Shown here piece after piece: positions 11,464 to 29,726 of a DNA stretch of 64,000 nt. This DNA comes from Paenibacillus aceti (GTDB lineage: Bacteria > Bacillota > Bacilli > Paenibacillales > Paenibacillaceae), in NCBI RefSeq assembly GCF_003614185.1, contig NZ_KZ987724.1, positions 478,679-542,678 on the forward strand, read 5' to 3'. Below the pieces are notes generated by a model, which made no database searches, was not told where the DNA came from, and worked only from the letters and a program-made list of their open reading frames with translations. The position numbers and the translations under genes are program-made. The stretch's first letter is position 1. The number at the start of each line of letters is the position of its first letter.

Positions 11464-12663
11464 TCAAACGTTCTTCGAAGAGCCAGTGGATTTCCCTGCC
11501 CTCAAGCCGGGGCCGCGGTGCAGATAACGGCTGGCGAAACCGAGACAAGCGGCGAGCGCGAATCCCATCGCAATGAGATAGAATTGTCTGCGGCCGAGCT
11601 CCTGGAACACCATGCCGCCGAATGTGCCGCTCAGCAGACCCGAAGCGCTGGACCAGACGATGGTGAACAAGGCCATACCTGTCGCCCGGAATTCATCTGG
11701 AATCAGTCTCGTCAGCATTCGGATCGAAGTGACGTAGAAGATCCCGAAGGACAGACTGTGCAGCAGCTGAATACCGACGATCGCATAGGCGGAGTCCGTT
11801 AGACCGACAAGCAGGAAGCGGGTTGCAAAGACAAGACTAGCAAAAATAAGCAGCGGCAGCTCTTTGAATCTCTCCCCATAGAGACTAAGGAACAGGAAGA
11901 TTGGAATTTCCGAGCAGGAAGAGGCCAGTTGCGCCCAGCCGATGATATTCTCCCCGGCACCGAGATCCTTCAATGTAATGGTCAGGAAGGCATCGTTCAT
12001 CCGCACGGAAAGAGCGAGACAGAAGACACAGCCGAAGAACCACAGCAGCTCCTTCTGACGCAGGATCGACCAGATGCCGGACATATTCATTTTGGCGACC
12101 GGAGTGCTCTGATCTTTGATGAACAAGGTAATGATCAGGGCGATAGCAGCGATGGTCATCGTGACCCACATCGTCCGATGCGAACCGATCAAAGATAACA
12201 CATAACCGATGACAAGCGCGAAGAAGGCGTAGCCGATCGAACCGAAAATACGTATCGTTATAAAGCTCTTACCATGCTCCCTGGCGGCGTTAATCGCCAT
12301 CGTATCGGATAGGGGCAAGACGGGATAATAGAAAAAGTAAAACACGGTAATAATCAGCATAATCACGGAAAATGAGGTTGAAATCGAGAGTATATAGGAC
12401 ATAATAATCTGTCCGATTAGTAGAATGCACATGATCTTCTTGATCGTTCTATATCTATCACTAGCTATGCTCCATAGCAGATTAGCAAATAAGGAAATCA
12501 TCGGCCCCAGTGCATACAGAATACCGATTTGACTACTGGTGAAGCCCAGCCCGGCATAGAACAGAGGGAAATAGGTGCTCACCAAGACAGTCGTTCCATA
12601 AATAGTGAAGGAGAAAGTGCGCAAGGATGTCAGATTAGACCGGGACAGGGAAGACGATTCCAT
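11464..12663 (-). CDS. MFS transporter (MFS_1-like, YwbF/NHS-type)
   Basis: A 399-residue membrane protein with about 12 hydrophobic helices. The loop after helix 2 carries the major-facilitator signature as WSIASDRYRTIKK, and LGFTSSQIGILYALGP before it is characteristic of the MFS_1-like branch that includes nucleoside and sugar-acid proton symporters. The open frame extends 67 codons further upstream, but that part is hydrophilic and unlike any transporter, so the ATG at 12663 is chosen; GAGG lies about 13 bases upstream. The substrate is unknown. It is a single gene, divergent from the sugar ABC importer. Confidence 0.85.
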   Translation of the reverse strand: MESSSLSRSNLTSLRTFSFTIYGTTVLVSTYFPLFYAGLGFTSSQIGILYALGPMISLFANLLWSIASDRYRTIKKIMCILLIGQIIMSYILSISTSFSVIMLIITVFYFFYYPVLPLSDTMAINAAREHGKSFITIRIFGSIGYAFFALVIGYVLSLIGSHRTMWVTMTIAAIALIITLFIKDQSTPVAKMNMSGIWSILRQKELLWFFGCVFCLALSVRMNDAFLTITLKDLGAGENIIGWAQLASSCSEIPIFLFLSLYGERFKELPLLIFASLVFATRFLLVGLTDSAYAIVGIQLLHSLSFGIFYVTSIRMLTRLIPDEFRATGMALFTIVWSSASGLLSGTFGGMVFQELGRRQFYLIAMGFALAACLGFASRYLHRGPGLRAGKSTGSSKNV

Positions 12664-12988: not shown

Positions 12989-13122
12989 TTTTGAGCAAAT
13001 TAAACACATTATCCCCTTGTCAAACAGGATTGTCAAAATGGATGAAGCCTGATGTGGCGAGGGTTCGGCGCACTCATAAACCACATATTTACGTTTAGTT
13101 GCTCGTGCCCTATCGTTAAACG

Positions 13123-13136
13123 TGTAAGCGCTAGCA
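13123..13136 (+). promoter_or_regulatory. cre (CcpA operator) 2 upstream of the sugar ABC importer
   Basis: TGTAAGCGCTAGCA matches the consensus TGWAARCGYTWNCA at every position and is nearly palindromic. It lies about 90 bases before the first permease start codon, so catabolite repression by CcpA is likely. Confidence 0.75.
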
Positions 13137-13225
13137 ATCCTGCAGGATTCGCAAATAGCACTAAAAAGAGAGCTTCGAAATCATCCATGAAATCATCAAG
13201 AAATCATACTGAAAGGGGTGATCCT

Positions 13226-14191
13226 ATGCAAGACGCCAAAACAGCTGTTTCAGGTGAAGTAATGTTAAAGCCTAAGAAAAGCACCGGTAATAACCTTTGG
13301 AAAAGAATCAAACAGAACTGGGAATTGTACATCTTTATTGCGCCCGCCTTTTTCTACTTCCTTATTTTCGCTTATGGGCCGATGTACGGCATTCAAATCG
13401 CGTTTAAGAACTTTATCCCGACCAAAGGAATTACAGGAAGCCCCTGGGTTGGATTCGATCACTTTGAACGCTTTTTCCATTCGTATTACTTTTGGGACTT
13501 GCTCTGGAACACACTGAGTATCAGCTTGTATGAGTTAGCCGTAGGATTTCCAATTCCAATTATTTTGGCTCTTGCTTTCAATGAAGTCAGAAACGGATTT
13601 TTTAAGAAGCTGGCTCAGACGGTTACCTATGCACCTCACTTTATCTCTGTAGTCGTTATGGCCGGGATGATTATCGCCTTCTTGTCCCCGTCCACAGGGA
13701 TCATCGTTCACTTTATTGAGGGATTAGGTTTTCAAGCGCCTAGTTTTCTGACAGATCCAAGATGGTTCAAAACAATTTACGTATTGTCGGGGGTATGGCA
13801 GAGCGCAGGCTGGGGAACGATTATCTACTTGGCAGCGCTTTCCGGGGTGGACCCTGGACTTCATGAAGCGGCCGTAATTGACGGGGCTTCGAGGTTCCAG
13901 CGCATCCTTAATATTAACATTCCAACGTTGCTGCCTACGATGACCATTTTACTTATTCTGAGCATAGGAAGCTTGCTGGGGGTAGGATTTGAGAAAATAT
14001 TGCTGCTGCAAAATCCGCTTAACATGAAATCTTCGGACGTGATTTCCACCTTCGTGTACCGCTCCGGACTCGTGGATGCACAGTATAGCTTCTCAACAGC
14101 AATCGGCTTGTTCAACTCTATAATCAACTGCATCCTGCTGGTTACTGTCAACCAAATCGTACGCCGGACGAGCGAGAATAGTTTGTGGTAG
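13226..14191 (+). CDS. Carbohydrate ABC transporter permease (LplB-type)
   Basis: A 321-residue inner-membrane permease with six predicted helices. It opens with a cytoplasmic tail, and FIAPAFFYFLIFAYGPMYGIQIAF is the characteristic first helix of LplB/UgpA-type permeases. The EAA loop that contacts the ATPase is seen as HEAAVIDGASRFQRILNI. The open frame begins earlier at 13052, but AAAGGGGTGATCCT directly before the ATG at 13226 fixes the start. It is the first gene of a three-gene importer (permease, permease, binding lipoprotein). No ATPase is encoded here, as usual for this group, which shares an MsmX-like ATPase. Two cre sites lie upstream. Confidence 0.92.
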   Translation: MQDAKTAVSGEVMLKPKKSTGNNLWKRIKQNWELYIFIAPAFFYFLIFAYGPMYGIQIAFKNFIPTKGITGSPWVGFDHFERFFHSYYFWDLLWNTLSISLYELAVGFPIPIILALAFNEVRNGFFKKLAQTVTYAPHFISVVVMAGMIIAFLSPSTGIIVHFIEGLGFQAPSFLTDPRWFKTIYVLSGVWQSAGWGTIIYLAALSGVDPGLHEAAVIDGASRFQRILNINIPTLLPTMTILLILSIGSLLGVGFEKILLLQNPLNMKSSDVISTFVYRSGLVDAQYSFSTAIGLFNSIINCILLVTVNQIVRRTSENSLW

Positions 14192-14206
14192 GAAGGAGGG
14201 GCACGA

Positions 14207-15115
14207 ATGGTATCAGGTATAAAAGAAACCAAGCGCGATAAATTGTTTTTGCTCTGCAACTACTTTTTTGTAATCCTAGCTTTTGTAATCGTTCTATATC
14301 CTTTGATCTATATGATCAGCGCATCGATCAGTAATCCGAAATACGTCGCTTCCGGCGAGATGTGGCTGTGGCCGAAGGGAATTACCTTTGATGGATACAG
14401 GCGGGTGTTTGAGAATTCGAGTATCTGGATCGGTTATGGGAACACCATTTTGTATACGGCGGTCGGAACGACGATCAATCTGTTGGTTACGCTGCCAGCG
14501 GCATATGCTTTGAGCCGTAAGGACTTTGTCGGACGGAATTTCTTCATGGGCATGTTCATGGTCACGATGTTCTTCGGCGGCGGCTTGGTGCCGAGTTACT
14601 TGCTGATCAAACAACTTGGCATGGTCAATACGATGTGGGCCTTGGTTATTCCATCAGCGGCATCGATCTGGAACATTATCGTCTCCCGTACCTTCTTCCA
14701 GAGTTCTATTCCGAAGGAGCTTCCGGAAGCGGCTCAGGTCGATGGATGTACCAATATGAGACTGTTCATAAAAGTAATTCTCCCACTGTCGATGCCGATT
14801 ATCGCTGTTATGGCATTATTCTATGGGGTCGGTCATTGGAACAGTTATTTCTCGGCCATGATCTATTTGAATGACGCTGCGAAATATCCGCTTCAACTAG
14901 TGCTGCGGCAAATTCTGGTCCTTCAGGAAATGTCCGCGCAGGGCGGCGGGGCGATCGATGTATCTACAGCGGCTGCTATGAATAGTAAGGCGGAAATCGC
15001 CGCTCTGGTCAAATATGCAGTCATCATTGTAGCGACTTTACCAGTTATTGCTGTCTATCCGTTCTTACAGCGTTATTTCGTTCAGGGTGTTATGATTGGC
15101 TCGGTTAAGGGCTGA
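14207..15115 (+). CDS. Carbohydrate ABC transporter permease (LplC/YtcP-type)
   Basis: The second permease of the importer, 302 residues with six predicted helices. The EAA loop reads PEAAQVDGCTNMRLFIKVILP, split across the usual coupling helix, and the C-terminus ends YPFLQRYFVQGVMIGSVKG, which is diagnostic of the LplC/YtcP group. AGGAAGGAGGGG lies before the ATG, 15 bases after the upstream stop, so the two permeases are co-translated in a fixed ratio. The importer class usually handles oligosaccharides or complex plant or host glycans; the substrate here is inferred only from the neighbouring glycosidases. Confidence 0.93.
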   Translation: MVSGIKETKRDKLFLLCNYFFVILAFVIVLYPLIYMISASISNPKYVASGEMWLWPKGITFDGYRRVFENSSIWIGYGNTILYTAVGTTINLLVTLPAAYALSRKDFVGRNFFMGMFMVTMFFGGGLVPSYLLIKQLGMVNTMWALVIPSAASIWNIIVSRTFFQSSIPKELPEAAQVDGCTNMRLFIKVILPLSMPIIAVMALFYGVGHWNSYFSAMIYLNDAAKYPLQLVLRQILVLQEMSAQGGGAIDVSTAAAMNSKAEIAALVKYAVIIVATLPVIAVYPFLQRYFVQGVMIGSVKG

Positions 15116-15157
15116 TCTTTGCAAGCGAAAACATACTAAAGAAGGAGCAATGACATA

Positions 15158-16738
15158 ATGAAAAAAATTTGCAAGGTATCATCCATTATTCTTTGTCTCA
15201 CTTTATCTGCCGGCCTGTTAGCGGCTTGTGGATCATCCGGTAATGGGGACTCTGCGGCTAAAGTGGAAGGAATTAAGAAAGAAGGATTCCCGATCGTTGA
15301 AGAGCCGCTTACACTCACTATGATGTCTCAGGACGCAGGGGTTGCAGACTGGAATGATATGCCTGTGCTTCAGGAGATGGAGAAGCTGACCGGAATCAAA
15401 TTTACTTATCAGCTTGCACCGATCGATAGCTTCGCCACGAAGAAGAACCTTGTATTCGCCAGCGGTGACCTGCCGGACGTATTCTACGGTGCTGATCTTA
15501 AGTCAGCGGATCAGGTAACCTATGGGACACAGGGCGTGCTTATCCCTCTGGAGGGTTATATCGATGATGGATATGCACCTAATATCAAGAAAATTTTTGA
15601 CGAGCATCCAGAGATTCGCCAATCTTTTACGACTCCTGACGGACATATCTATGCACTTCCGAACGTGGACTTATCCGCAGTGTGGTACCGCAGTCCGATG
15701 TGGTATAACGGCAAGTTCTTGAAAGCCCTGAATATTACGGAGCTGCCGAAGACGACAGAGGAGCTGTATGACTATTTGAAACGGGTGAAGGAAGAGGACC
15801 CGAACGGCAATGGCAAGAAGGATGAAATTCCGCTGACTTCCGTGAAACTCGATGATTTGCGCATGTATTTCCTCGGCTTCTGGGGAATTTACAGTGAAGG
15901 TATTTATGCTGATAAGGACGGCAAGGTTCGCTATGCACCTCAGGAAGAAGGATACAAAGGGTATCTGACCTTCTTGAACAAGCTCTGGAACGAAGAACTG
16001 CTCGACCATGAGACCTTCTCCCAAACGCCTGAGCAGAAGAAGGCGAAGGGGCAGAACAACCAGATCGCCTTGTTCAACGACTACTATCCTTACTTTACGC
16101 TCGGCGGGGAGCCTAGCACAGAGCATCCGCTGATGACACCGGTGAAGAGTGAGATTGATGGTTCTCCGGTATACGGCAAGCATCCAGGACTTTCTGCTCA
16201 AGGAACCTTTGCGATTACGAGTAAGAACCCCGCTCCAGAAGCGACGATGCGCTGGATCGATTATCAATATGGCTATGAAGGAGCAACCTTGTTTGCTCAA
16301 GGACCTGAGGATCTGTTGTGGAAATACAAGAACAAAGACACGCATGAGAAAGAGTGGCTGCCGGTTCCAGGAGGCAAGGATCGTGAGGAATACCGCGGTA
16401 CGGTCACGCCTAACTACGGCATTCTGACACCGGGTATGAACTCCGCTGAGCTGACAGTAGGTTTGAAGAGTGATTTTGATAGATGGATCGATGAGGAGAA
16501 TCAAGAGAAGCTCGTACCGATCGGCAAGTCGCCATTCCCTAACGTATATTTGACGAATGATGAACAGAGCGAAGCCACAGCCTTGTTCTCTGACCTGAAC
16601 ACGTACGTACAGCAAATGGAAGCCAAATTCGTAACAGGTCAAGAGTCGTTGTCCAATTGGGATAAGTATGTAGACCAAGTGAAGAAAATGGGCGCGGACC
16701 GCATCGTTGAATTGTATCAAGCGGCATACGATCGTTAA
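15158..16738 (+). CDS. Extracellular solute-binding lipoprotein (LipO-like)
   Basis: A 526-residue family-1-type substrate-binding protein. A signal peptide ends in the lipobox LLAAC (Cys about residue 24), followed by GSSGNGDS, so the mature protein is lipid-anchored outside the cell. The LTMMSQDAG and LPDVFYGADL stretches and the long mature domain are typical of Paenibacillus LipO proteins, which are larger than classical sugar-binding proteins. It completes the importer 42 bases after the second permease and is followed by a strong terminator. The ligand is probably an oligosaccharide; a fucosylated or GlcNAc-containing one is inferred from the adjacent operon. Confidence 0.92.
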   Translation: MKKICKVSSIILCLTLSAGLLAACGSSGNGDSAAKVEGIKKEGFPIVEEPLTLTMMSQDAGVADWNDMPVLQEMEKLTGIKFTYQLAPIDSFATKKNLVFASGDLPDVFYGADLKSADQVTYGTQGVLIPLEGYIDDGYAPNIKKIFDEHPEIRQSFTTPDGHIYALPNVDLSAVWYRSPMWYNGKFLKALNITELPKTTEELYDYLKRVKEEDPNGNGKKDEIPLTSVKLDDLRMYFLGFWGIYSEGIYADKDGKVRYAPQEEGYKGYLTFLNKLWNEELLDHETFSQTPEQKKAKGQNNQIALFNDYYPYFTLGGEPSTEHPLMTPVKSEIDGSPVYGKHPGLSAQGTFAITSKNPAPEATMRWIDYQYGYEGATLFAQGPEDLLWKYKNKDTHEKEWLPVPGGKDREEYRGTVTPNYGILTPGMNSAELTVGLKSDFDRWIDEENQEKLVPIGKSPFPNVYLTNDEQSEATALFSDLNTYVQQMEAKFVTGQESLSNWDKYVDQVKKMGADRIVELYQAAYDR

Positions 16739-16817: not shown

Positions 16818-19109
16818 TTATTCACCGTCCAAATCGGTTTTCGTTCCGGGTACGGTGTGCTGTGAGAACATTTTGCGGTATTGTCCTGGCGTATAGCCCG
16901 TCTCTTTTTTGAACTTGCGGATGAAGTTCGGTGCATCGAGATAGCCGACCTTCTGGATGATCTCCTTGAGCGGATCATTGGTCGTCTTGAGCTGATATTT
17001 GACCTCTTCTTCTCTCTTATGCCACACATACTGGATGAAGTTAAGCCCGACCTTCTCTTTGAAGGTGCGGCTGGCATGGGAAGGCGAGATATCGAATTCG
17101 AACGCTACCGTCTCCAGACTAAGGGCATTGTCCATATAATGCTCATCAATATAAGCGACGATCTGATCAATGATAGACTGCTCTTCCTTGTGGGTATCCT
17201 GCTCAACCTGCTCGCAGATTTGCGAGGCCAGCTTAAGCAGATCGCTCTCCAGCTCATCCAAAGAGTTGCTATAGAGCAGATTAGGAGCTATCTCCTGCAT
17301 CAGATGATGATGACTGCCTAGCTCGGAAGCGGTCTTCAAGATCGTATTCAGCAGATCGAAGCAGATACAGCGGATATATAATGCCGATAGCTCAGAGGGC
17401 TGCAAACCGACGAAGGCGTTATGAATCATCTGCGCCGCTACATCATAGCTGCCCTGCTTCAAGCTCTGTGATAGCTTAATCAGACTATTGGCCGGGATCC
17501 AGAATGTATGATCTGGCGAATCGGACAGCTTATCGAAGTAATTGACCGAGCCTTGTTCCGTGGATACACGTAGATCAAAGGCTGAACAGGCTTCAATATA
17601 AGATTGGTTCAGCTGGCTCAGGCTTGAATAGGCCGTACCGACCCCGATGGTAGGAACGATATCGAAGCTGTCTAGCAGATTGCTGCGCACGGCTTCGGTG
17701 ATCAGCCGCTTATGGGCGAATTCATCGGATGAACCATTAAGATCGAAGTTGATAATCAGCCCGATTTGATCCATCCGTGACAATTCAACTCCATAACCAT
17801 GGGCACCTAGCTCCGGAAATTCAATCTGGGTCAGCAATCCGATAATCTCCTGATGCTCCTGAATACCATTCTGCGTATCTTCATTCCAGCCGATAACCAT
17901 CACGAAGTAATGAGAGCGGTTGAAGTCGAGATCGAAGGCCTCGCGAAGCTCAGGCGTAAGGTCCTGGGAGTTACCATATTTAAGCAGCATGGACAGAAAA
18001 TGATGTCGTGCGAACGGTTCCTGCAGGTCGACCCGCGAGGAGTATTCCTGCAGCAGAGTGCGGATGCTCTCCAATTCATTACCGGCAGTGGTGCCGCTTA
18101 GATTCGAACCGGATTTGGAGGCGGCAAACTCCACCAGCATGGAAATCGGCTGATATTGCATTCTGGCCAGTACGAGCGCGATCGCTATACCGACAATGAC
18201 AACGATGGAGAACAGAATGATCATGAAGCTGCGTATATGCAGGACACTGCTGAAGAACTGTGAGCTCGGCATGATCGTGACATAGGTCCAGCCATTGGAC
18301 TGGGATTTGACGGCGACGATGGAGTGAGCCTCACCGTTAATAACGCGGTCCTCGATACCTGGCTTAAGATCAGCGAATAGCGATTTGGTTTCAACCGTGC
18401 TTAACGCTTCACCCTGACGGTTGTCCACCAGAATATGTCCCTCATTATCGAGGATATAGGTCTGTCCCTTGTAGCTCCCCAGGATCGAATCGACCAGGCT
18501 GGTCAGCTCGGATTCATTGATCAAATACATGATCGTGGCATGGGGGTTGGGACTGTTGGGTGTAATCGGAACCAAGTAAGCCAGCATCGATTTCTCCACT
18601 CCGGAGGGGTTGCTGACGATGTCTGACGGTCGTATCGCAGGGTATTTGGCTGAATTCAAATCATGAAAAAGGGCATTCTCATCCCATGTTTTAAAGCGAA
18701 GATTATTCGTGAACACATTGATATTATTCAGGCCCTTACTGGAGTAGATTTTATCGTCCTTGTGAAAGTACAGATAAATCTCGCCGATGATGGAGCTGGT
18801 GGCCCTGTATTGGTCGAGAGCCTGGATAGACTCGGAGCTGTAGATTGGATCGTGAACCTGATAGTACGTAAGTCTTCGGTCGTAAGAGATGCGGGTAGCG
18901 ATTTCATTAAGCTCCTTCATCCGGCCGTCGATCACTACTTTGGCTTGCGTTAATTGGGCGAGGCGTGACTGTTCGATCTCTGTCTGCAGACTAGTGATAG
19001 CGTTTTTATAAATCAGCACGCTCATGAACACTAAAGGAATAATCAGAATGAATAGATAAGACCAGATATACTTCAGAAATAATTTGGACTTGAAGTAGTT
19101 CAGTTTCAA
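16818..19109 (-). CDS. Membrane-anchored AraC-family regulator with extracytoplasmic sensor
   Basis: A 763-residue protein with a helix near residues 12-32, an extracellular region of about 270 residues resembling a Cache-type sensor, a second helix near residues 300-320 (MIILFSIVVIVGIAIALVLA), a cytoplasmic linker, and a C-terminal AraC double helix-turn-helix (last 100 residues, with FDISPSHASRTFKEKVG and VGYLDAPNFIRKFKKETGY). This is the YesN-like one-component layout common in Paenibacillus next to sugar importers. The start is a TTG with GGGGG about 8 bases upstream. It is convergent with the importer operon and divergent from the fucosidase operon, so it probably senses an external glycan and activates one or both. 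Confidence 0.9.
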   Translation of the reverse strand: MKLNYFKSKLFLKYIWSYLFILIIPLVFMSVLIYKNAITSLQTEIEQSRLAQLTQAKVVIDGRMKELNEIATRISYDRRLTYYQVHDPIYSSESIQALDQYRATSSIIGEIYLYFHKDDKIYSSKGLNNINVFTNNLRFKTWDENALFHDLNSAKYPAIRPSDIVSNPSGVEKSMLAYLVPITPNSPNPHATIMYLINESELTSLVDSILGSYKGQTYILDNEGHILVDNRQGEALSTVETKSLFADLKPGIEDRVINGEAHSIVAVKSQSNGWTYVTIMPSSQFFSSVLHIRSFMIILFSIVVIVGIAIALVLARMQYQPISMLVEFAASKSGSNLSGTTAGNELESIRTLLQEYSSRVDLQEPFARHHFLSMLLKYGNSQDLTPELREAFDLDFNRSHYFVMVIGWNEDTQNGIQEHQEIIGLLTQIEFPELGAHGYGVELSRMDQIGLIINFDLNGSSDEFAHKRLITEAVRSNLLDSFDIVPTIGVGTAYSSLSQLNQSYIEACSAFDLRVSTEQGSVNYFDKLSDSPDHTFWIPANSLIKLSQSLKQGSYDVAAQMIHNAFVGLQPSELSALYIRCICFDLLNTILKTASELGSHHHLMQEIAPNLLYSNSLDELESDLLKLASQICEQVEQDTHKEEQSIIDQIVAYIDEHYMDNALSLETVAFEFDISPSHASRTFKEKVGLNFIQYVWHKREEEVKYQLKTTNDPLKEIIQKVGYLDAPNFIRKFKKETGYTPGQYRKMFSQHTVPGTKTDLDGE

Positions 19110-19284: not shown

Positions 19285-20679
19285 ATGAGTGAGAATAAAT
19301 GGATAGATGACGAGCTGGAATCCGTGGTGGAACAAGGGGTGCATAATTACAGCAGTGAGGAGCATTGGGTCAAGCCGGAAGATCCGCTGCTGCTGGAGCG
19401 TCTGGAGTGGTTCAAGGATCAGAAGCTCGGACTGATGATGCACTGGGGCCCCTATTCCCAGCTTGGCCTTGTGGAATCTTGGGCGCTGAGTGATGTGGAC
19501 GAGGAATGGTCACGGAATGAGATCGATTGGGATATCGATGCGGAAGAGCTGAAGCGGCAGTATTTTAATCTGAACAAGACGTTCAACCCGCTGCGCTTCC
19601 AACCGGATCTATGGGCGGACCTGGCCGCCAGCAACGGATTCAAATATCTGAACTTCACGACCAAGCATCATGACGGATTCTGTATGTGGGATACGAAGAC
19701 GACGGATTATCGGATCACAGGCCCGGATTGCCCGTTCCATACGCATAAATATGCCGATATCACGAAGCAGCTGTTCGATGCCTTCCGCGCCAGAGGGCTG
19801 GGCATTTCCGCATACTTCTCCAAGGCGGACTGGCATACGCCTTATTACTGGGCGCCAGGGATGCGGCCGGGAACGACGACATCGCGGGGGCCGACCTATG
19901 ATCCGAAGCAATATCCTTGGCTGTGGGAACAATTCGTTAAATTCACCCATGAGCAGATTATGGAGCTGATGACGAACTATGGCCGAATCGATGTGCTATG
20001 GCTGGATGCTGGTTGGGTCAATGACTATCGTGATCAGAACATCAGACTCGGTGAAGTGGTCGAGAGGGCCCGGGAAATCCAGCCTTGGCTGCTATCAGCA
20101 GACCGTACGGTCGGAGGTCCTTATGAGAATCTGATCACGCCGGAGCAGACGCTGCCGGATCGAGCGCTGCATGTGCCGTGGGAGAGCTGTATTACGATGG
20201 GCTCGGCATTCTCATTTCGCTATGAGGACAATTATAAATCGGTGCGCCAGCTGATCCATCTGCTGGTGGAGATCGTGGCCAAGGGCGGCAATCTGGCCTT
20301 GAACGTCGGCCCTCAACCGGACGGCCGGATTTCGAAGACAGCGATTTCCCGGATTCAAGGAATGGGAGAATGGTTGAAGGTGCATGGTGAAGCGATTTAT
20401 GGAACGAGGATTTGCGAGCCTTACTCGGTCGGAAACATCCAGTTTACACAAAAGGATGACAAGGTCTACGCCTTCTATCTGTACAAGAGTGAGCAGGAGA
20501 ATGTACCGCAGGAACTGATTCTTCCACTGCAGAGAGAGATCAGCCTCAGCCGGATCGACTTGATCGGCGGCAGTGACGCGCTGGAATACCGCCGGACGGA
20601 GCAGGGAATCGTGGTCCGGCTGCCAGAGGCGGAGACCGGGGGCAAGGCCCCGATCGCTCATGTATTTCGGATTCAATAA
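19285..20679 (+). CDS. Alpha-L-fucosidase, GH29 (first of two)
   Basis: A 464-residue cytoplasmic glycoside hydrolase with no signal peptide. The GH29 barrel is recognised from MMHWGPYS near the start, TTKHHDGFCMWDTK (about residues 125-139) and RIDVLWLDAGW, whose Asp (about residue 241) is the expected nucleophile for retaining cleavage of alpha-L-fucosides. It lacks a clear C-terminal carbohydrate-binding domain beyond a short beta region. The frame is open from 19252, but CGGAGGG sits 5-6 bases before the ATG at 19285. It opens a five-gene operon. The paralogue downstream is clearly divergent, so the two probably act on different fucose linkages. Confidence 0.92.
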   Translation: MSENKWIDDELESVVEQGVHNYSSEEHWVKPEDPLLLERLEWFKDQKLGLMMHWGPYSQLGLVESWALSDVDEEWSRNEIDWDIDAEELKRQYFNLNKTFNPLRFQPDLWADLAASNGFKYLNFTTKHHDGFCMWDTKTTDYRITGPDCPFHTHKYADITKQLFDAFRARGLGISAYFSKADWHTPYYWAPGMRPGTTTSRGPTYDPKQYPWLWEQFVKFTHEQIMELMTNYGRIDVLWLDAGWVNDYRDQNIRLGEVVERAREIQPWLLSADRTVGGPYENLITPEQTLPDRALHVPWESCITMGSAFSFRYEDNYKSVRQLIHLLVEIVAKGGNLALNVGPQPDGRISKTAISRIQGMGEWLKVHGEAIYGTRICEPYSVGNIQFTQKDDKVYAFYLYKSEQENVPQELILPLQREISLSRIDLIGGSDALEYRRTEQGIVVRLPEAETGGKAPIAHVFRIQ

Positions 20680-20750
20680 TAGATGACGGAGCAACAGGTG
20701 ATAGATCGACTCTATTTTAGCAAAATGGAAATGGAAGGGTGTTGAGCAGA

Positions 20751-22037
20751 ATGCAGCAATGGTTTGAGGAAGCGAAGCTGGGTATTTTTATACACTATGG
20801 CATTTATGCAGTAGACGGAGTTTCGGAATCATGGTCCTTTTATAATGGCAGGATGTCCTATGAGCAGTACATGAAGCAATTGGATGGATTTACGGCGTCG
20901 CGATTCGATGCGGATGAGTGGGCCGACCTGATCGAGAAGTCCGGGGCCAAATATGCGGTGCTGACGACGAAGCATCATGATGGGGTGGCGCTCTGGGATA
21001 CGAAGTACAGCGATTTGAATGTCGTGAAGAAGACCCCGGCCGGGCGTGATCTGATCAAGGAATATGCTGAAGCAATCACCAAAAGAGGCATCCGCCTGGG
21101 GATGTACTACTCGCTGATCGACTGGTCGCATCCGGACTATCCGAGCGTATATGAAGGCGGCAAGGTGCCGGAGGATCTGAGCAAGGTTAATCGCTTCTCA
21201 AGCCCGTTGGACGGGGTTCAGGATGAAGAGAAATGGCAGAGATTCCTGGAGTTTAACAATAATCAGCTGCGCGAAATTCTGACTAATTACGGCAAGGTGG
21301 ATCTGCTCTGGTTCGATGGGGATTGGGAGCGGAGCGCGGAGCAATGGAATCTGCCGGAGTTCAAGCATTATCTGCAGTCTTTTAACCCCGATCTGATCAT
21401 TAATTCACGGCTTCAAGGCCATGGTGACTATAAAACACCGGAGCAAGGGCTGCCGATTACGAGACCGGAAGGTCCGTGGGAGTTCTGTACGACGATCAAT
21501 AGCTCTTGGGGTTATGTGCCGAGGGATAATCATTATAAATCACTGAATCAGATTATCCGTATGTTCTGTGATTGCATCTCTATGGGCGGGAATATGCTGC
21601 TGGACATCGGCCCTAGAGAGGATGGAACGATCGACCAGAGACAGGTCGATATTCTGCTTGGGCTCGGCGATTGGATTCACACCCATGAAGAAGCGGTATA
21701 TGGGACGCAGGAAGGGATTATGACCAGGTACTATCTTGGGGGAAGCACGCTGTCCAAGGACAAGAAGACGCTGTATCTCTTCGTATATGATACTCCGAAG
21801 GAGAGTATATGTCTCAAGGGGCTCTGCAATCCGATCAAGAAAATTACGGTGCTGCATTCAGGCAAAGAGCTGACCTATGACATTCACGGCGGCGTTCCTT
21901 GGTTCAATATCCCGGGTACGACCTGGATCCATCTGACGCCTGAAGATACGCATGAGCAGGTCACGGTGCTTAAGCTGGAATTTGACGAGGAAGTGGAGAT
22001 GTACGGGGGCTCCGGGGCCGTTGTTACCCATAATTGA
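20751..22037 (+). CDS. Alpha-L-fucosidase, GH29 (second of two)
   Basis: A second GH29 enzyme of 428 residues, also without signal peptide. Motifs: LGIFIHYGIYAVDGVSESW at the N-terminus, TTKHHDGVALWDTK (about residues 72-85) and KVDLLWFDGDW, with the nucleophile Asp at about residue 189. The C-terminal 120 residues form a beta-rich domain typical of the family. GTG 20739, TTG 20742 and ATG 20751 are in frame; the ATG is preferred, with GGAAGGG about 11 bases before it. It follows the first fucosidase by 71 bases. Sequence divergence from its neighbour argues against a recent tandem duplication. Confidence 0.92.
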   Translation: MQQWFEEAKLGIFIHYGIYAVDGVSESWSFYNGRMSYEQYMKQLDGFTASRFDADEWADLIEKSGAKYAVLTTKHHDGVALWDTKYSDLNVVKKTPAGRDLIKEYAEAITKRGIRLGMYYSLIDWSHPDYPSVYEGGKVPEDLSKVNRFSSPLDGVQDEEKWQRFLEFNNNQLREILTNYGKVDLLWFDGDWERSAEQWNLPEFKHYLQSFNPDLIINSRLQGHGDYKTPEQGLPITRPEGPWEFCTTINSSWGYVPRDNHYKSLNQIIRMFCDCISMGGNMLLDIGPREDGTIDQRQVDILLGLGDWIHTHEEAVYGTQEGIMTRYYLGGSTLSKDKKTLYLFVYDTPKESICLKGLCNPIKKITVLHSGKELTYDIHGGVPWFNIPGTTWIHLTPEDTHEQVTVLKLEFDEEVEMYGGSGAVVTHN

Positions 22038-22100
22038 TCGTCAGTGGTCTGTGGCATAAATAGCATAATTATAAATTAACCTACGTTCGGAGGAGACAAC

Positions 22101-23123
22101 ATGAATCTGAGTGGAGTACCGGAGCCGAGAATCGAGTATAACCCGAAGCATTATATTTGCCGCCGTGCGGCGGGACCGCTCGTGCTGGACGGCCGACTTG
22201 ACAAGCCCTTCTGGCAAGGGGCGGAATGGACGGAGGATTTCGTAGATATCGAGGGCGATCTCCGTCCGAGACCCGCCAAGCAGACCCGCGTCAAGATGCT
22301 CTGGGACGATGAATATTTCTATTTTGGAGCGGAGCTGATTGAGGATCAGATTTGGGCGACGCTGACAGAGCGTGATTCGGTTATTTTCTATGATAATGAT
22401 TTTGAGATATTCATCGATCCCGACGGCGATACGCATCAATACTATGAATTCGAGATGAATGCCCTGAACACGGTATGGGATCTGCTGCTCGTCAAGCCTT
22501 ACCGCGATGGAGGGCCGCCGGTGAACGGCTGGGATATCAGCGGTCTGAAGACGGCGGTTCATATCGATGGAGAGCTGAATTGCCCCGATGCTGAGAACCG
22601 GAAGTGGAGCGTAGAGGTGGCGATCCCTTGGAAAATCCTGAAGGAATGCGCGCCGGAGGTGCGCTCGCCACTTGCAGGTGAGTTCTGGCGGGTGAACTTC
22701 TCTCGCGTCGAGTGGCGCACCGAGGTGAAGGACGGCAAGTACAGCAAGGTGATTAACCCGGATACAGGCCAGCCGTATCCAGAGGACAATTGGGTATGGT
22801 CGCCGATGGGAATTATCAATATGCATTATCCCGAGCTGTGGGGATATGTCGTATTTGCGGATGCCAACGGGCCGGATACTTTTACCTTGCCGCAGGATGA
22901 GCTTATCAAGTGGGAGCTGCGGAAGCTGTATTATCGCCAGCGCAATTATTTTGAGAGCAACGGTCAATTTACTCAGGATGTAGAGGTGCTGCTGGGCGGG
23001 GAGAAGCTCGGGATCACGCCGACGATGGAGACGACGCGAAGCCTGTTCCAGATCACGGCTCCATCAGCGGACGGAACTGCTATGTATTGCATTCGTGAAG
23101 ACGGAAAACTGTGGAAGGAGTGA
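22101..23123 (+). CDS. CBM9-like carbohydrate-binding protein
   Basis: A 340-residue protein resembling the stand-alone CBM9-like (DOMON-related) family often found in glycan-degradation loci of Bacteroidetes and Paenibacilli. The characteristic start is PLVLDGRLDKPFWQGAEW, then a KMLWDDEYFYFGAEL strand, a YDNDFEIFIDPDGD block and WSVEVAIPW. Unlike the xylanase-attached CBM9 modules it has no signal peptide and no fused enzyme, so it should be cytoplasmic. Whether it binds sugar or has an unrecognised catalytic function is unknown. GGAGGAG precedes the ATG. It lies 63 bases after the second fucosidase and 9 bases before the transglutaminase-like gene. Confidence 0.82.
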   Translation: MNLSGVPEPRIEYNPKHYICRRAAGPLVLDGRLDKPFWQGAEWTEDFVDIEGDLRPRPAKQTRVKMLWDDEYFYFGAELIEDQIWATLTERDSVIFYDNDFEIFIDPDGDTHQYYEFEMNALNTVWDLLLVKPYRDGGPPVNGWDISGLKTAVHIDGELNCPDAENRKWSVEVAIPWKILKECAPEVRSPLAGEFWRVNFSRVEWRTEVKDGKYSKVINPDTGQPYPEDNWVWSPMGIINMHYPELWGYVVFADANGPDTFTLPQDELIKWELRKLYYRQRNYFESNGQFTQDVEVLLGGEKLGITPTMETTRSLFQITAPSADGTAMYCIREDGKLWKE

Positions 23124-23132
23124 GCGGAGAAG

Positions 23133-25775
23133 ATGACTAACAACAAGGTACTCTCATTGGATTCTAAGACGATGGAATTGATCGATCGCAAGCTGCGCGT
23201 CAAGCGGGAGATGGCCCGCGCCAAGGAGCATGAGCTATTCGATGTGTTCGAACAGGATTTGACAGAGGAGGAGACCTGGGCGCTTAAATATCTCTATACT
23301 TATATGTCAGTTAATGATATGGCCGATTACGATAGCGACTTATTTCTCAGCTATGTGCGCAAGTCGCTGGAAATCCGCAAGAAAATGCCTTGGGGAAGTC
23401 GGGTGCCGGATCATTTATTCCTCCATTTCGTATTACCTTACCGGGTAAATACAGAGAATATCGAGGATTCCCGTGGCATTCTGCATCAGGAGCTGTTCGA
23501 GCGCACGAAGTCGCTCTCCATGGCTGATGTGATTCTGGAGACGAATTACTGGTGTCACGAGAAGGCGACCTATATTGGCAGCGACTTGCGGACCATCGCT
23601 CCGTTGTCGTTGATTCGGAATGCGCGCGGACGCTGCGGTGAGGAATCGACGCTAGCTGTGGCGGCCTTACGCAGTATTGGCATCCCGGCCCGCCAGGTGT
23701 ATACGCCGCGCTGGGCGCATTGCGATAGTAACCATGCCTGGGTAGAGGCCTGGGCTGATGGTACCTGGTACTATATCGGCGCATGCGAGCCGGAGGCCCG
23801 CTTGAATCAGGGCTGGTTCAGCCCGCCGGCACGCAGAGCGATGCTGATCAACACTCGAATTTATGCCGATTATCCGGGGCCAGAGGATATTACGCTGGCG
23901 GACGAATGGTTTACGGAAATTAATTTGCTTGAAAATTACGCTCCTGCGCGGGTGATTACCGTCTCTGTCAAGGATGGGGAAGGCCAACCTGTCAGCGGGG
24001 CTAAGGTGCGCTTTGAACTTTATAATACGGCTGAATTTTATCCGATTGCCACGATCCCGACGAATGAACAGGGAGAAGCCGTCTTCAAGACAGGTCTTGG
24101 CGATTTGTTGGTCCGTGTAGTGAAGGATGGTCAGTGGGGCGAGGGGAAAATAACGGTGGCGGACAATGATCGCTTCGAAATTGTCCTGGATCAGACGGAA
24201 CAGCCGAGCGGAACGCAGGATCTGGATATGGTCCCGCCGCCAGAACGCGAGGGCGAAGCAGTTGCTCCATTGAGCGAGGAAAGTGTGGAGCGTCATAATC
24301 GCCGTCTGGAGGCAGGCACGAAGATCCGCACCTCTTTCGAGGATACGTTCTTGAACGAAACGGCTGCCTCAGAGCTGGCTGCTGAAGTCGGACTGCCTGC
24401 GGATCGGGTATGGAATATGCTGCAGAAGGCGCGTGGCAATAGCCATGAGATCGCTGCATTCTTGCGCGAGCAATCGAGAGAGCATGGGGAGTGGTCGCTG
24501 CGCCTGCTTGAGAGCCTGAATGAGAAGGATCTGGTCGATACGTTCCGGGATACGCTGGTTGATCATTTGCATGGAGCGTTGGCTCTGAAGGGAGATCTTC
24601 CGGAGGATGTATTTGCTCAATATCTACTGTGTCCGCGTGTATTGTATGAGATGATCGTGCCGTACAGACGTTTCTTCCAGGAAGCATTCACCGAGGAAGA
24701 AGTGGCGAAGTTCAAGGCTGATCCGGCCGTGCTTGCTAGCAAGCTGGACGAGAACTACAGCCGGCGGGAGGATTTGCCGAACCTGAAGGGGAAAGGCAAT
24801 CCAGTAGGCACATATAAGCTTATGGCAGGCGATCCGGTATCACTGGATATTCTGTTCGTCGCGATTTGCCGCAGCTGGGGCATTCCGGCGCGGATGCATC
24901 CAAGTGAATTGAAGCCGCAATATATGGCCGACGGCGGTTGGGTCGATGCTGTGCTGGATGCATCTGTACCTTGCGAGGAAGCCGAAGCCGCTAAGGCTTG
25001 GGGCAATATCCGGCTGCTTAAGGATGCCCAGGCTCCTGCTGACGCCCCGGCGGCTTCTTACTTCGAGAACTTCTCATTTGCCCGGCTGGAGCATGGAGTG
25101 TATAAGACGCTGATCTTCTCGGAGGGTCAACAAGATGTGTACGATCAGCTGTTCGAAGTGGAGCCAGGTTCATACCGATTGACCACGGGCGTTCGTCTGA
25201 AGGATGGAACGGTGCAGGTACGTTTCACTTATTTCCAGGTTCGTGCTGGGGAACAGACGGATGTGGTATTAACCTTCCGGCATGAGGAGCATGAAATTCC
25301 GGTGCTGGGAACTATGGATCGGCAAGTTCCGCTCACGACACTGGATGGCGCAAGCTGCAAGCTGGATAAACTGATTGGGGATAGCGGCGCGATTGTCGCC
25401 TGGATTGAACCGGAGCGTGAACCAACCAAGCATCTGTTCCGTGAAATTGGCGAACTGACGGAAGCATTTGCCGAACTGGCGGCTCCGATAGTATTGATCA
25501 TCGGGGATGCGGAGTGGACCGCGTCCTTTGATACGGCCCATTATCCGAAATTGCCTGGAACTACTGTATTTGCTCGTGATGCTTCATATGCAGCTTTGCT
25601 GGATGTCATCTCGCAGTCCTCGGCTCATGATGCTGGTTATCCGCATCTGTTCGTGTTGGATGGCGCCGATCAGATCCGCTACATGACTTCAGGATATAAG
25701 CTTGGTACTGGAAAGGAATCACTCCAAGTATTATCGGCTGTCAGACAGAAGTCCAAGGATCGGAGTGAAGTATAA
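23133..25775 (+). CDS. Multidomain transglutaminase-like protein (PNGase-like signature)
   Basis: An 880-residue cytoplasmic protein. Residues about 90-250 form a transglutaminase-fold domain with GRCGEES (Cys168) and SNHAWVEAW (His201), followed by WYYIGACEPE where transglutaminases and peptide N-glycanases carry the third, acidic residue; here Gly216 seems to stand at the Asp position. Residues 270-355 look like an Ig-like, carboxypeptidase-regulatory-type domain (VSVKDGEGQPVSGAKVRF). Residues about 465-630 echo the first domain without its Cys (WGIPARMHP, GGWVDAVLD). Residues about 730-870 resemble a thioredoxin-like fold lacking CxxC. It sits between the CBM9-like and GH18 genes, almost touching both. 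Amide hydrolysis on glycopeptides is inference only; the function is unknown. Confidence 0.8.
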   Translation: MTNNKVLSLDSKTMELIDRKLRVKREMARAKEHELFDVFEQDLTEEETWALKYLYTYMSVNDMADYDSDLFLSYVRKSLEIRKKMPWGSRVPDHLFLHFVLPYRVNTENIEDSRGILHQELFERTKSLSMADVILETNYWCHEKATYIGSDLRTIAPLSLIRNARGRCGEESTLAVAALRSIGIPARQVYTPRWAHCDSNHAWVEAWADGTWYYIGACEPEARLNQGWFSPPARRAMLINTRIYADYPGPEDITLADEWFTEINLLENYAPARVITVSVKDGEGQPVSGAKVRFELYNTAEFYPIATIPTNEQGEAVFKTGLGDLLVRVVKDGQWGEGKITVADNDRFEIVLDQTEQPSGTQDLDMVPPPEREGEAVAPLSEESVERHNRRLEAGTKIRTSFEDTFLNETAASELAAEVGLPADRVWNMLQKARGNSHEIAAFLREQSREHGEWSLRLLESLNEKDLVDTFRDTLVDHLHGALALKGDLPEDVFAQYLLCPRVLYEMIVPYRRFFQEAFTEEEVAKFKADPAVLASKLDENYSRREDLPNLKGKGNPVGTYKLMAGDPVSLDILFVAICRSWGIPARMHPSELKPQYMADGGWVDAVLDASVPCEEAEAAKAWGNIRLLKDAQAPADAPAASYFENFSFARLEHGVYKTLIFSEGQQDVYDQLFEVEPGSYRLTTGVRLKDGTVQVRFTYFQVRAGEQTDVVLTFRHEEHEIPVLGTMDRQVPLTTLDGASCKLDKLIGDSGAIVAWIEPEREPTKHLFREIGELTEAFAELAAPIVLIIGDAEWTASFDTAHYPKLPGTTVFARDASYAALLDVISQSSAHDAGYPHLFVLDGADQIRYMTSGYKLGTGKESLQVLSAVRQKSKDRSEV

Positions 25776-26813
25776 ATGACGAAGCGGGCATATATCGTCG
25801 ATGGCTATATCGTGGATGACAAGCTGCCGAGTATGACTAAGGAAGATCTGTCGAAGCTGACGCATCTTAACATCGCCTTCGGTCATATCATCGATCAGCA
25901 AATTTCCACCGCTCATTTGAAAAATTTAGGAGTATTGCAGAGGATCAAGGGTGAGCATCCTGAACTGAATCTACTGCTGTCTGTAGGTGGCTGGAGCGCC
26001 GATGGCTTCTCGCAAGCGGCGGCAACTGAGGTGGGGAGAGCTAGCATGGCCGAATCAGCCCTTCGGGTCTTAACGGATTATCCATTTGATGGTATCGATC
26101 TGGATTGGGAATATCCTTGCTATGGTGAAGCCGAGATCGCGTCCAGATCCGAGGATAAGACGAATTTCACCCTGCTGCTACGGACTTTGCGGGAAGCACT
26201 CGATCGTAAAGGAGCCGAGGACGGACGCCATTATATGCTCACGATCGCTGCAGGAGCCGATCAATATTATATTGATGGCACCGAGATGGATAAGGTCCAG
26301 GAGTATGTCGATTTCGTGCAGTTGATGACCTATGACATGCGCGGCGGCTTCCAGGTGCTGACCGGGCATCACACGAATCTGTATACACCGGACGGCGATT
26401 TGTTCCGCATCAGTACGGATGCATCTGTGAAGCTGTTCATACGCGCCGGAGTACCGCGGGAAAAAATCGTCATCGGGGCCGCTTTCTATTCGCGGCTCTG
26501 GAACGAGGTGCCAGACCGTCATTTCGGTCTCCACCAAATGGCTGGCACCACCGGCGGATATGGCCCGGATTATACGACACTGGTTAAGGACTATATCAAT
26601 AAGAACGGGTACACTCGTTACTGGGATGCGAAGGCATGTGCGCCATATCTGTTCAACGGATCGAGCTTGATCTCCTACGATGATGAGGAATCGATCGGGC
26701 ATAAGTGCGAATATGTGAAGGATAGCGGCCTGGCTGGCATCATGTTCTGGGAATACAGCTGCGATGAGACCCATCGTCTGCTAGATGCAATATCCAGCGG
26801 ACTTCGTCATTAA
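25776..26813 (+). CDS. Glycoside hydrolase family 18 (chitinase/endo-beta-N-acetylglucosaminidase type)
   Basis: A 345-residue single-domain GH18 enzyme. The catalytic motif DGIDLDWEYP gives Asp108, Asp110 and the acid Glu112; LLLSVGGWS is the preceding conserved strand and QLMTYDMRG the later substrate-binding strand. The family hydrolyses GlcNAc-beta-1,4-GlcNAc links by substrate-assisted catalysis. There is no signal peptide and no chitin-binding module, so secreted chitin degradation is unlikely; it probably acts on imported chitobiose-core or N-glycan fragments. Its ATG begins immediately after the TAA of the previous gene, the tightest junction in the operon, which suggests coupled translation with the transglutaminase-like protein. 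Confidence 0.9.
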   Translation: MTKRAYIVDGYIVDDKLPSMTKEDLSKLTHLNIAFGHIIDQQISTAHLKNLGVLQRIKGEHPELNLLLSVGGWSADGFSQAAATEVGRASMAESALRVLTDYPFDGIDLDWEYPCYGEAEIASRSEDKTNFTLLLRTLREALDRKGAEDGRHYMLTIAAGADQYYIDGTEMDKVQEYVDFVQLMTYDMRGGFQVLTGHHTNLYTPDGDLFRISTDASVKLFIRAGVPREKIVIGAAFYSRLWNEVPDRHFGLHQMAGTTGGYGPDYTTLVKDYINKNGYTRYWDAKACAPYLFNGSSLISYDDEESIGHKCEYVKDSGLAGIMFWEYSCDETHRLLDAISSGLRH

Positions 26814-27188: not shown

Positions 27189-27369
27189 GAATCATGAGGA
27201 GTGGTAAATCGTCGCAGTAGCTTTCTCCGTAGGTAGATAATGGTGGATTATCTTAGTGAAGAGCAGGTGCAGAGATATGAGCATTCAATAAACACCAGGT
27301 TGTCTGATGATAAGCTTCTTCGTAAAATGATAGTGTGATCAGTGGGTGGAAAATGGGGGGACATTGGCT

Positions 27370-28209
27370 GTGATTCAATATACTAACGGTGCGGTAACGG
27401 TTTTTCAAAGTGTTCTGTATCAGACGACATCTACGGTGGTTGAGTTGGGGGATGCGATTCTGATTGTAGATCCGGCTTGGCTTCCGGGAGAGGTCGAGGC
27501 AATTAGGAGCTATGTGGATTCGGTACGGGGGGATAAGGCTTGCTATTTGCTGTTTACGCATGGGGATTTTGATCATATCATCGGCTATAAGGCCTTTCCA
27601 GGTGCCAAGACGATTGGAAGTGCAGGACTCGCTGAGTATCCGGAAAAAGAACATACTCTACAGATCATTCGCGACTTTGATGCCAGATACTACGTTACGC
27701 GCGATTATCCCATCGAGTTCCCGAAGCTGGATATCGTGATCGGAGAGGATGGACAGGAGGTGATGATGGGTTCCACCATGCTAACCTTCTATCTGGCACC
27801 AGGACATACCGCGGAAGGTATATTTACACTGATCGATTCGGCGGGACTTTTTGTAGCGGGGGATTATTTGTCTGATTTTGAGCTGCCGTTTATTTTTGAT
27901 AGTGCGATAGCTTACGAGGAGACAATTCGCAAGGCTAAGCAGATTGTGCAGACTCATTCGGTTAAGTTGCTCGTTCCGGGGCATGGGCAGTGTACGGAGC
28001 AGCTTATGGAGATGGAGCGCAGAGTGGATCTGGCCTTGGGTCATTTGCAGCGATTGAAGCAGGCTGTTATCGCAGGCGATGAGCAGGCACTCGAACAATT
28101 ACGACTGGAGCATGGCTTTGTTTCCCCGGCAACGGATCGTTGTCATCGGGAAAATATAAGCATGATTCAGAAAGAGTATCTGAAGCAGGGAGAGTCTGGA
28201 AAAATCTAA
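27370..28209 (+). CDS. MBL-fold metallo-hydrolase
   Basis: A 279-residue metallo-beta-lactamase-fold protein. The metal motif appears as FTHGDFDHIIG, so the usual HxHxDH has Asp in place of the second His, as in several related hydrolases. Further ligand blocks are LAPGHTAEG, FVAGDYLSD and LVPGHGQC. The protein is probably a cytoplasmic hydrolase of small esters, thioesters or phosphoesters; the substrate is not predictable. GTG at 27370 lies 9 bases after GGGGGG and is preferred over in-frame GTG 27346 and TTG 27364. It is a single gene, with repeat arrays on both sides. Confidence 0.85.
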   Translation: MIQYTNGAVTVFQSVLYQTTSTVVELGDAILIVDPAWLPGEVEAIRSYVDSVRGDKACYLLFTHGDFDHIIGYKAFPGAKTIGSAGLAEYPEKEHTLQIIRDFDARYYVTRDYPIEFPKLDIVIGEDGQEVMMGSTMLTFYLAPGHTAEGIFTLIDSAGLFVAGDYLSDFELPFIFDSAIAYEETIRKAKQIVQTHSVKLLVPGHGQCTEQLMEMERRVDLALGHLQRLKQAVIAGDEQALEQLRLEHGFVSPATDRCHRENISMIQKEYLKQGESGKI

Positions 28210-28715: not shown

Positions 28716-29726
28716 ATGAAAGATATAAAAATTATCGATGTAGCAAAGCAAGCCGATGTGTCGCCAGCCACGGTGTCTCGGGTGTTGAATGGAAGCAAGC
28801 TTGTCAATGTCAAGACTCGGCAGAGAGTGATGCAGGTGATCCGTGAACTCGAATATATCCCTAACAATATGGGTAAGCAGCTGCGTTGTCGCAAAGCGAT
28901 GACCTTGGCGGTTGTGGTCTCGGATGTACTGGCCTCATATTATGCAGAGATTATTAAAGGGATCGAGAATATGGCGAACTCGCTGAACTACCGGGTGTTG
29001 ATTTGCGATGCGCAGAACCAGAGGCAAAAGGAACTGGAATTCCTGTCATTGCTGATAAACCATACGGTAGATGCTCTAATTATGGTCACTCCGAGTCTCT
29101 CAGATGAGGAACTCAGTTCTTATGCAGATGATGGTTATCATCTCGGGGTGATCGGGCGGAAGGTCGAGAATCCGCGGATTCCCTGTTCTTTTACGGACAA
29201 TATCAGCTTAGCCAGGGATGTTGTCTTCCATCTGGCCGAGCAGGGGCATCGCAAGATCGCTTTTTTAAGCGGTTACATGAGTGCGACCGACAGTATCAAA
29301 CGATTGGAAGGGTTCATCAAAGCGCTGGAAGAAGCGGGGATTCCGTTAGAGCAGAGCTTGATTGAGAATGGCGACTTTTCAGAGATAGGCGGATATGGGG
29401 CATTCAAGCGATTGCGCAGCCAGCGTCAGGATTTCACCGCCGTCTTTACCGCGAATGATGAGATGGCGCTTGGCGTGTATAAAGCCTGTGCCGAGCTGGG
29501 CATATCGATCCCTGAGCAGTTAGTGGTCGTAGGTGTGGATAACATTCGTCTGACGAATTATGTTGTGCCACGAATCAGCTCAATGGAGCAGCCTTTATAC
29601 ATGTTAGGCTCTGTGCTGGCCGAGAAATTGATCGATCAGATGAATGGGAACAGGCTGGCGGATAAGAGGCAATTTAAGCTGGAGGCGGAGCTTATAGTCA
29701 AAGAATCGTCATGCATGCAAATTTAA
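28716..29726 (+). CDS. LacI/GalR-family transcriptional regulator
   Basis: A 336-residue repressor-type protein. The N-terminal helix-turn-helix reads IIDVAKQADVSPATVSRVLNG (residues 5-25), followed by the hinge YIPNNMGKQLRCRKAMT and a periplasmic-binding-protein-like sensor domain (VVVSDVLASYYAEIIKGIE, VFTANDEMALGVYKA, VVGVDNI). These are the standard features of sugar-responsive regulators. AGGGGGC lies just before the ATG. It is not adjacent to a metabolic operon in its own orientation, so its target is unclear; the upstream MBL gene or the fucosidase locus are candidates. Its own promoter and terminator make it a single transcription unit inside two hairpin arrays. Confidence 0.93.
   Translation: MKDIKIIDVAKQADVSPATVSRVLNGSKLVNVKTRQRVMQVIRELEYIPNNMGKQLRCRKAMTLAVVVSDVLASYYAEIIKGIENMANSLNYRVLICDAQNQRQKELEFLSLLINHTVDALIMVTPSLSDEELSSYADDGYHLGVIGRKVENPRIPCSFTDNISLARDVVFHLAEQGHRKIAFLSGYMSATDSIKRLEGFIKALEEAGIPLEQSLIENGDFSEIGGYGAFKRLRSQRQDFTAVFTANDEMALGVYKACAELGISIPEQLVVVGVDNIRLTNYVVPRISSMEQPLYMLGSVLAEKLIDQMNGNRLADKRQFKLEAELIVKESSCMQI

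Follow-up and report, generated by a model that had tools for sequence, protein, structure and literature searches.

A conserved Paenibacillus aceti locus with fucosidase, CBM9-like, transglutaminase-like, and GH18 genes is a candidate N-glycan-core utilization system

Several described systems bear on the locus analyzed here. For Lactobacillus casei alf-2, the pathway section of the published account covers uptake of the core-fucosylated glycoamino acid Fuc-alpha1,6-GlcNAc-Asn (Fuc, fucose; GlcNAc, N-acetylglucosamine) and the cytoplasmic GH29-type enzyme AlfC, with GlcNAc-Asn then cleaved by the glycosylasparaginase AsnA2 and possibly a peptidase (PMC6960285). The Streptococcus pneumoniae EndoD/NgtS/CPL system, as outlined in passages of PMC5215778, combines an N-glycan ATP-binding cassette (ABC) importer with exoglycosidases including GH29, GH38, and GH125. 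Cytosolic peptide:N-glycanase (PNGase) NGLY1/Png1 is presented in part of PMC9102325 as a transglutaminase-fold enzyme devoid of a secretion signal, and excerpts of PMC9522356 describe Bacteroides PNGase F/type II enzymes that cleave the GlcNAc-Asn bond to release N-glycans and that act alongside GH29 and other glycosidases. Here, we examined a stretch of 64,000 nucleotides from Paenibacillus aceti (contig NZ_KZ987724.1, positions 478,679 to 542,678; hereafter, the window), in which five consecutive open reading frames (ORFs) on the plus strand at 19285-26813 encode two GH29 proteins, a CBM9-like protein, a transglutaminase-like protein (TG), and a GH18 protein. At a rough probability of 0.55, which applies to the locus as a whole and not to the TG step, we regard it as an N-glycan-core utilization system for cytoplasmic breakdown of (Fuc)GlcNAc1-2-Asn or -peptide, a reading in which we infer both the substrate and the enzyme steps.

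Examination of the gene order confirmed what a preliminary description of this DNA had stated: the five genes are nearly contiguous, with intergenic gaps of 71, 63, 9, and 0 bases (taking ATG starts at 19285 and 20751), none of the products bears a signal peptide, and a lipoprotein solute-binding protein (SBP) is encoded nearby. A purine-rich stretch precedes the start codon of each of the five genes. No strongly hydrophobic N terminus was found among the five operon proteins, unlike the SBP upstream, which carries a lipoprotein-type signal. FucA and FucB matched PF01120 (GH29) with E values of 2e-83 and 1e-95 (281 and 321 bits versus a cut-off of 25.2), respectively, and the GH18 protein matched PF00704 at 2e-72 (245 bits versus 29.6), with DGIDLDWE in its translation, the catalytic motif of GH18 being DxxDxDxE. 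A full-length GH18 relative of equal size is PDB entry 6inx (555 bits), the molecule name of which is N-acetylglucosaminidase, and chitinase domains are also near; we take 6inx to be the Paenibacillus barengoltzii GH18 N-acetylglucosaminidase PbNag39. The CBM9-like product matched Pfam CBM9_1 at an E value of 4e-11 over about half of the profile, and the CBM9 fold was recovered. Its residues 266-340 (window 22896-23120) form a C-terminal helix-and-sheet part with a type IV pilin-like fold, though there is no export signal.

To judge conservation, 41 genomes of the genus were sampled, the P. aceti genome (G000) included. Of these, 17 have a complete or nearly complete TG, as a single piece or as several, a set that excludes G012 and G014, which hold short TG fragments only. 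The CBM9-like partner (53-100% identity) is present in the same 17 genomes and in none of the 24 others (Fisher p 7e-12, kinship ignored), weaker CBM9-like matches (26-32% identity) occurring in other genus genomes, and cluster-type GH18 was detected in the 17 TG genomes plus G014, at 65-100% identity and at 48% in G002 and G005. TG, GH18, the CBM9-like gene, and at least one GH29 gene stand together in 16/16 other genus loci, and because of this we consider their association to be beyond chance. At least the SBP gene of the importer also lies inside the 16-kb (once 15-kb) stretch at all 16, some of the stretches taken ending within the importer. Thus, the conserved unit is wider than five genes, since the importer genes (13052-16738) and the opposite-strand AraC regulator (16818-19109) are kept too. 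A FucA counterpart was seen at 15 of these 16 loci, and a FucB relative of >80% identity at 4, with a relative of ~35% at 3 more. The preliminary description had named as refuting evidence a neighborhood pattern in which TG and GH18 genes normally lie apart from fucosidases; within the genus the opposite was observed, GH29 and GH18 lying near TG in 17/17 TG genomes. Two loci (L045 and L046) diverge, with TG at ~32% and SBP at ~28% identity and a CBM9 gene on the opposite strand that runs off the stretch end. G014 retains a C-terminal TG remnant only, adjoining GH18, and in G031 and G018 (L035 and L044) the TG gene is split by a frame change or stops, possibly through decay or assembly error.

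Beyond the genus, a broad TG scan retained the best 80 of 568 loci, so that the 46 Firmicutes and 49 Bacteroidota-side loci compared here are the closest relatives and are not representative of the family. Among the 46 Firmicutes loci are our own, L068 from Clostridiaceae, a few contigs below full flank, and loci stopping before the importer; L047 and L059, which duplicate L032 and L035, were left out. Neighbor families were sought within 9 kb by tblastn with a single reference protein each, a procedure that distant members may escape. This revealed matches to CBM9 in 43/46, GH18 in 42/46, SBP in 40/46, and GH29 in 37/46 loci, together with AraC in 33/46, a count also taking in other AraC genes. 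These data indicated that the core consists of the CBM9-TG pair, the most constant element, with GH18 and the importer, and that fucosidases are optional. Additional modules were found at some loci. A GH125 alpha-mannosidase gene occupies the slot between fucosidases and CBM9 in L048, L049, L061, and L062; GH38 occurs in 2/46 loci, in the same slot in L049 and at the locus edge, upstream of the importer, in L052; and in G002 and G005 the gene directly downstream of TG on the same strand encodes a GH85 endo-beta-N-acetylglucosaminidase that has SLH domains and an apparent signal peptide. In the passages of the literature drawn upon here, GH85 frees N-glycans and the GH125/GH38 pair acts on N-glycan cores. 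L073 has CBM9-TG with asparaginase II and an M17 aminopeptidase, GH18 and GH29 being unmatched there, and L065 shares with it a TG-CBM9 pair without GH18. The gene at L049:1960-5163 (~1067 amino acids, with a faint GH42/GH5 trace) adjoins GH125 in the TG locus, has a similar gene in L048, and perhaps encodes an undescribed glycosidase; its assignment as a beta-mannosidase was not used, the single PDB match being marginal (a GH5 mannanase, 0.0035).

In the P. aceti genome itself, there are three matches to GH125, five to GH38N (one of them weak), and two to GH85. At an unlinked locus (L136, G000:C1:4825001-4845000, 819-12374), an NgtS-type SBP is encoded with permeases, GH3, GH38, GH125, and GH130; the best PDB relatives of this SBP are NgtS entries (E 6e-83; 5suo and 5swa are named NgtS), and the GH125 of L136 shares 84% identity with the one inside the L049 TG locus. 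A second NgtS-like SBP, 54% identical to that of L136, is encoded next to a GH85 gene whose product has an apparent signal peptide in L159 (G000:C1:1130001-1148000, 707-11149), where importer genes and an apparent two-component pair are also found. A further alpha-mannosidase locus, L135 (G000:C1:640001-660000, 3549-11274), contains GH125 and GH38 and, facing them, GH92 and a regulator that looks GntR-like by eye. An NgtS-type assignment of the window importer was rejected, as its best PDB match, 5g5y, is FusA; the NgtS link holds only for the SBP of L136 and its relative in L159. No match to the glycosylasparaginase family PF01112, to which we presume AsnA2 belongs, was found in the P. aceti genome, and the family is present in 2/41 genus genomes.

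TG matched Pfam Transglut_core (PF01841) at residues 132-214 of 880 (E 3e-22, 79.6 bits versus a cut-off of 23). Its domains are, in order, a TG core with Cys168 and His201, an Ig-like domain (273-354), a second TG-like part without the Cys, and a thioredoxin-like fold (723-876). The best PDB sequence matches of the core are PNGases, with weak scores (1x3w, E 0.0068; 3esw, E 0.0075), followed by the putative cysteine protease 3isr (0.041) and the peptide N-glycanase 2f4m (0.11), and the motifs GRCGE and (A/S)CE are common to TG and the PNGases in the alignment. The 50 rows that VIA-align gave for the TG model were mostly thioredoxin folds and eukaryotic transglutaminases and included no PNGase, a result that excludes nothing. 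In the thioredoxin-like part (window 25299-25760), the consensus includes an EPxREPTKH stretch and the window protein lacks CxxC; this domain is probably redox inactive.

On the Bacteroidota side, TG relatives at 35-41% identity were found at 49 loci, 47 from Bacteroidota, one from an uncultured bacterium (L077), and one from Candidatus Saccharicenans (L126). A hydrophobic N terminus was present in 47/49 of these proteins versus 1/31 from Firmicutes. The tie of TG to fucosidases and GH18 that the preliminary description implied, while holding in the genus (17/17), did not extend here, with GH29 near TG in 5/49 and GH18 in 0/49 loci. GH92, GH38, GH125, GH130, or GH2 genes are present in L080, L083, L095, and L101; in L080, GH38, TG, and GH92 are contiguous, and in L083 GH125, CutC, and TG are followed on the opposite strand by CBM9, a symporter, GH130, and GH94. 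Lacking a random-locus control, this neighbor pattern is suggestive only. The CutC gene, whose name comes from copper homeostasis, is no more than 1 kb from TG in 13/49 loci, often with gaps of <40 bases (L076, L077, L083, L087, L088, L093, L094, L099, L109, L111, L118, L123, and L124). Whether CutC has a glycan-related role deserves attention; a literature search for CutC together with glycosylasparaginase gave no match.

Uptake of fucosylated chitobiose or glycopeptide pieces and their breakdown inside the cell, as originally proposed, is the best-supported reading, because sister loci contain GH125, GH38, or surface GH85 and because separate N-glycan loci exist in the genome; its emphasis shifts in that the fucosidases are optional and the CBM9-TG pair is most constant. 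In such a system, endoglycosidases (GH85), mannosidases, and proteases outside the cell would trim N-glycoproteins to (Fuc)GlcNAc2-Asn or (Fuc)GlcNAc-Asn with little or no peptide, and the adjacent ABC importer would bring in these core pieces. The GH29 enzymes would then strip core fucose, GH18 would cut GlcNAc-beta-1,4-GlcNAc, the CBM9-like protein may hold the glycan (binding only, no catalysis being assumed), and TG, as a putative Cys-His enzyme of transglutaminase fold, could cleave the GlcNAc-Asn amide or else trim peptide.

A number of observations weigh against the N-glycan-core reading. Mannosidases and endoglycosidases are absent from the window locus, GH125 was found in no more than 4/46 Firmicutes loci, and both GH38 and GH125 may serve other mannans too. 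NgtS entries are absent among the 15 PDB matches (E 0.01 or better) of the window SBP. Across the genus, GH125 (81-100% identity) is present in 37/41 genomes without a significant link to TG (Fisher p 0.13), and strong GH85 matches in 21/41 (8/17 with TG and 13/24 without; Fisher p 0.76); since both are spread regardless of TG, their genus-wide co-occurrence was rejected as support, and only their positions inside TG loci were used. GH18 is unmatched in 4/46 and GH29 in 9/46 Firmicutes loci, the latter making fucosidases a frequent yet optional module. The close relative of the window GH18, 6inx, is presumably a chitin-oligomer enzyme. The narrow form of the reading is also opposed by the Bacteroidota relatives, which are exported proteins encoded for the most part away from mannosidase or fucosidase genes: within 9 kb of the 49 TGs, CutC is the commonest neighbor (14), with GH92 at 6, GH38 at 3, and GH125 at 1, and many of these TG genes have no glycan neighbor among the families sought. 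Finally, the Cys-His-Asp triad is incomplete: Cys168 and His201 are invariant, the former partly preset by the search pattern of the broad scan, and the Asp position is Gly216 in 61/61 sequences.

That missing Asp counts against TG as a plain PNGase and leaves an amidase role putative; the weak PNGase similarity and the lack of a PF01112 match in the genome favor amide cutting. Granted the N-glycan-core reading, it is possible, at odds clearly below even, that TG opens the GlcNAc-Asn amide. Doubtful is the broader proposal that TG would be the first of widespread bacterial transglutaminase-fold glycan-amide hydrolases, as a cytosolic NGLY1 counterpart with an altered triad in Paenibacillaceae and as exported, CBM9/CutC-partnered proteins in Bacteroidota.

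TG could instead be a cysteine peptidase that trims amino acids off imported glycopeptides, leaving GlcNAc-Asn to another enzyme. The score of 3isr is near those of the PNGases (0.041 versus 0.007), aminopeptidase and asparaginase II genes lie beside CBM9-TG in L073, and the L. casei pathway section proposes a cytoplasmic peptidase, PepV (PMC6960285). However, P. aceti has no PF01112 enzyme to split GlcNAc-Asn, and TG is constantly paired in the genus with a carbohydrate-binding fold; we consider this role rather unlikely. An unlikely alternative for the whole locus is use of chitin oligosaccharides, with chitobiose or chitotriose imported and split by GH18, and with fucosidases, CBM9, and TG accessory for modified chitin or fungal-wall material. 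It would suit the nearness of the GH18 to N-acetylglucosaminidase and chitinase domains of that family and the nine Firmicutes loci with GH29 unmatched, while the GH29 genes at the other 37, the TG-CBM9 pairs without GH18 in L065 and L073, and the GH125, GH38, or GH85 of sister loci, which are not chitin enzymes, argue against it.

It is similarly improbable that TG and CBM9 make up a glycoconjugate module of general use, unrelated to N-glycans and recruited beside various glycosidases. On the Bacteroidota side, where the N terminus is hydrophobic in 47/49, TGs do adjoin CutC, GH31, GH97, or LepA besides mannosidases, but L080, L083, L095, and L101 on that side also have the mannosidase and related genes given above, and most Firmicutes copies share a single conserved locus, which in some cases includes N-glycan modules. 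Highly improbable, in our estimate, is another fucosylated GlcNAc substrate, for example a surface glycan of bacteria or lipochitooligosaccharides from soil symbionts, from which TG would remove an acyl or peptide amide: fucose on GlcNAc oligomers plus an amide would suit the same enzymes, yet the mannosidases and GH85 of sister loci would have no evident role.

The features of the locus are summarized in Table 1. Downstream of the operon, window 27346-28209 encodes a protein whose metallo-beta-lactamase-type matches are weak, and window 28716-29726 encodes a LacI-type regulator; a gene 86% identical to the latter is found behind GH18 in L031, L032, and L035 and is absent there in the other 13 genus stretches taken.

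Table 1. Genes of the window locus and the adjacent importer and regulator
Feature	Coordinates	Strand	Remarks
ABC importer permease A	13052..14191	+	BPD_transp_1; true start probably inside ORF; kept beside operon in relatives
ABC importer permease B	14207..15115	+	BPD_transp_1
Lipoprotein SBP	15158..16738	+	Best PDB relatives FusA (5g5y) and AlgQ1/2, not NgtS
AraC-type regulator, sensor-like N-terminal part	16818..19109	-	Divergent from operon; start uncertain
FucA, GH29 alpha-L-fucosidase, 464 aa from ATG	19285..20679	+	No signal peptide
FucB, GH29 alpha-L-fucosidase, 428 aa from ATG	20751..22037	+	No signal peptide
CBM9-like protein	22101..23123	+	Constant TG partner in genus; CBM9 fold residues 16-256
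TG protein, 880 residues	23133..25775	+	Candidate glycan-amide hydrolase or peptidase
GH18 N-acetylglucosaminidase-like enzyme	25776..26813	+	No signal peptide; near relative of PDB 6inx

Compared with the described systems, the locus differs from each of them. L. casei alf-2 relies on the permease AlfH and on AsnA2, while the P. aceti genome has no PF01112 match, and GH18, CBM9, and TG do not appear in its pathway section (PMC6960285). The S. pneumoniae system is matched by the NgtS-type protein of the second P. aceti locus (L136); the window locus, in contrast, has a FusA/AlgQ-like SBP and no mannosidase, and TG, CBM9, and GH18 are not in the table passage of PMC5215778. Relative to NGLY1/Png1, as portrayed in part of PMC9102325, TG shows weak similarity (E 0.007), Gly in place of the catalytic Asp, and other domains (Ig-like, second TG-like, and thioredoxin). 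The Bacteroides PNGase F/type II enzymes, in excerpts of PMC9522356, have two eight-stranded beta-sheets and a signal peptide, and the word transglutaminase is absent from that paper. PbNag39, in the portion of its literature consulted, was studied for chitin conversion. A literature search, with preprints and most subscription papers outside its reach, found no transglutaminase-like protein tied to bacterial N-glycan loci, and the word is likewise absent from a 2023 review (PMC10154615), whereas a Paenibacillus genome paper (PMC10353221) contains it once. The component families are thus known, and the gene combination and the TG role were not found in the literature searched. The closest precedent for the proposed mechanism is the Fuc-GlcNAc-Asn pathway of L. 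casei, as its pathway section presents it. Beside that precedent, the locus points to an unrecognized, widely conserved route by which soil Firmicutes may use protein-linked N-glycans, with TG as a testable candidate for the GlcNAc-Asn bond step; were TG an amidase, it would represent a new class of bacterial deglycosylating enzyme, useful as a tool and informative on transglutaminase-fold chemistry.

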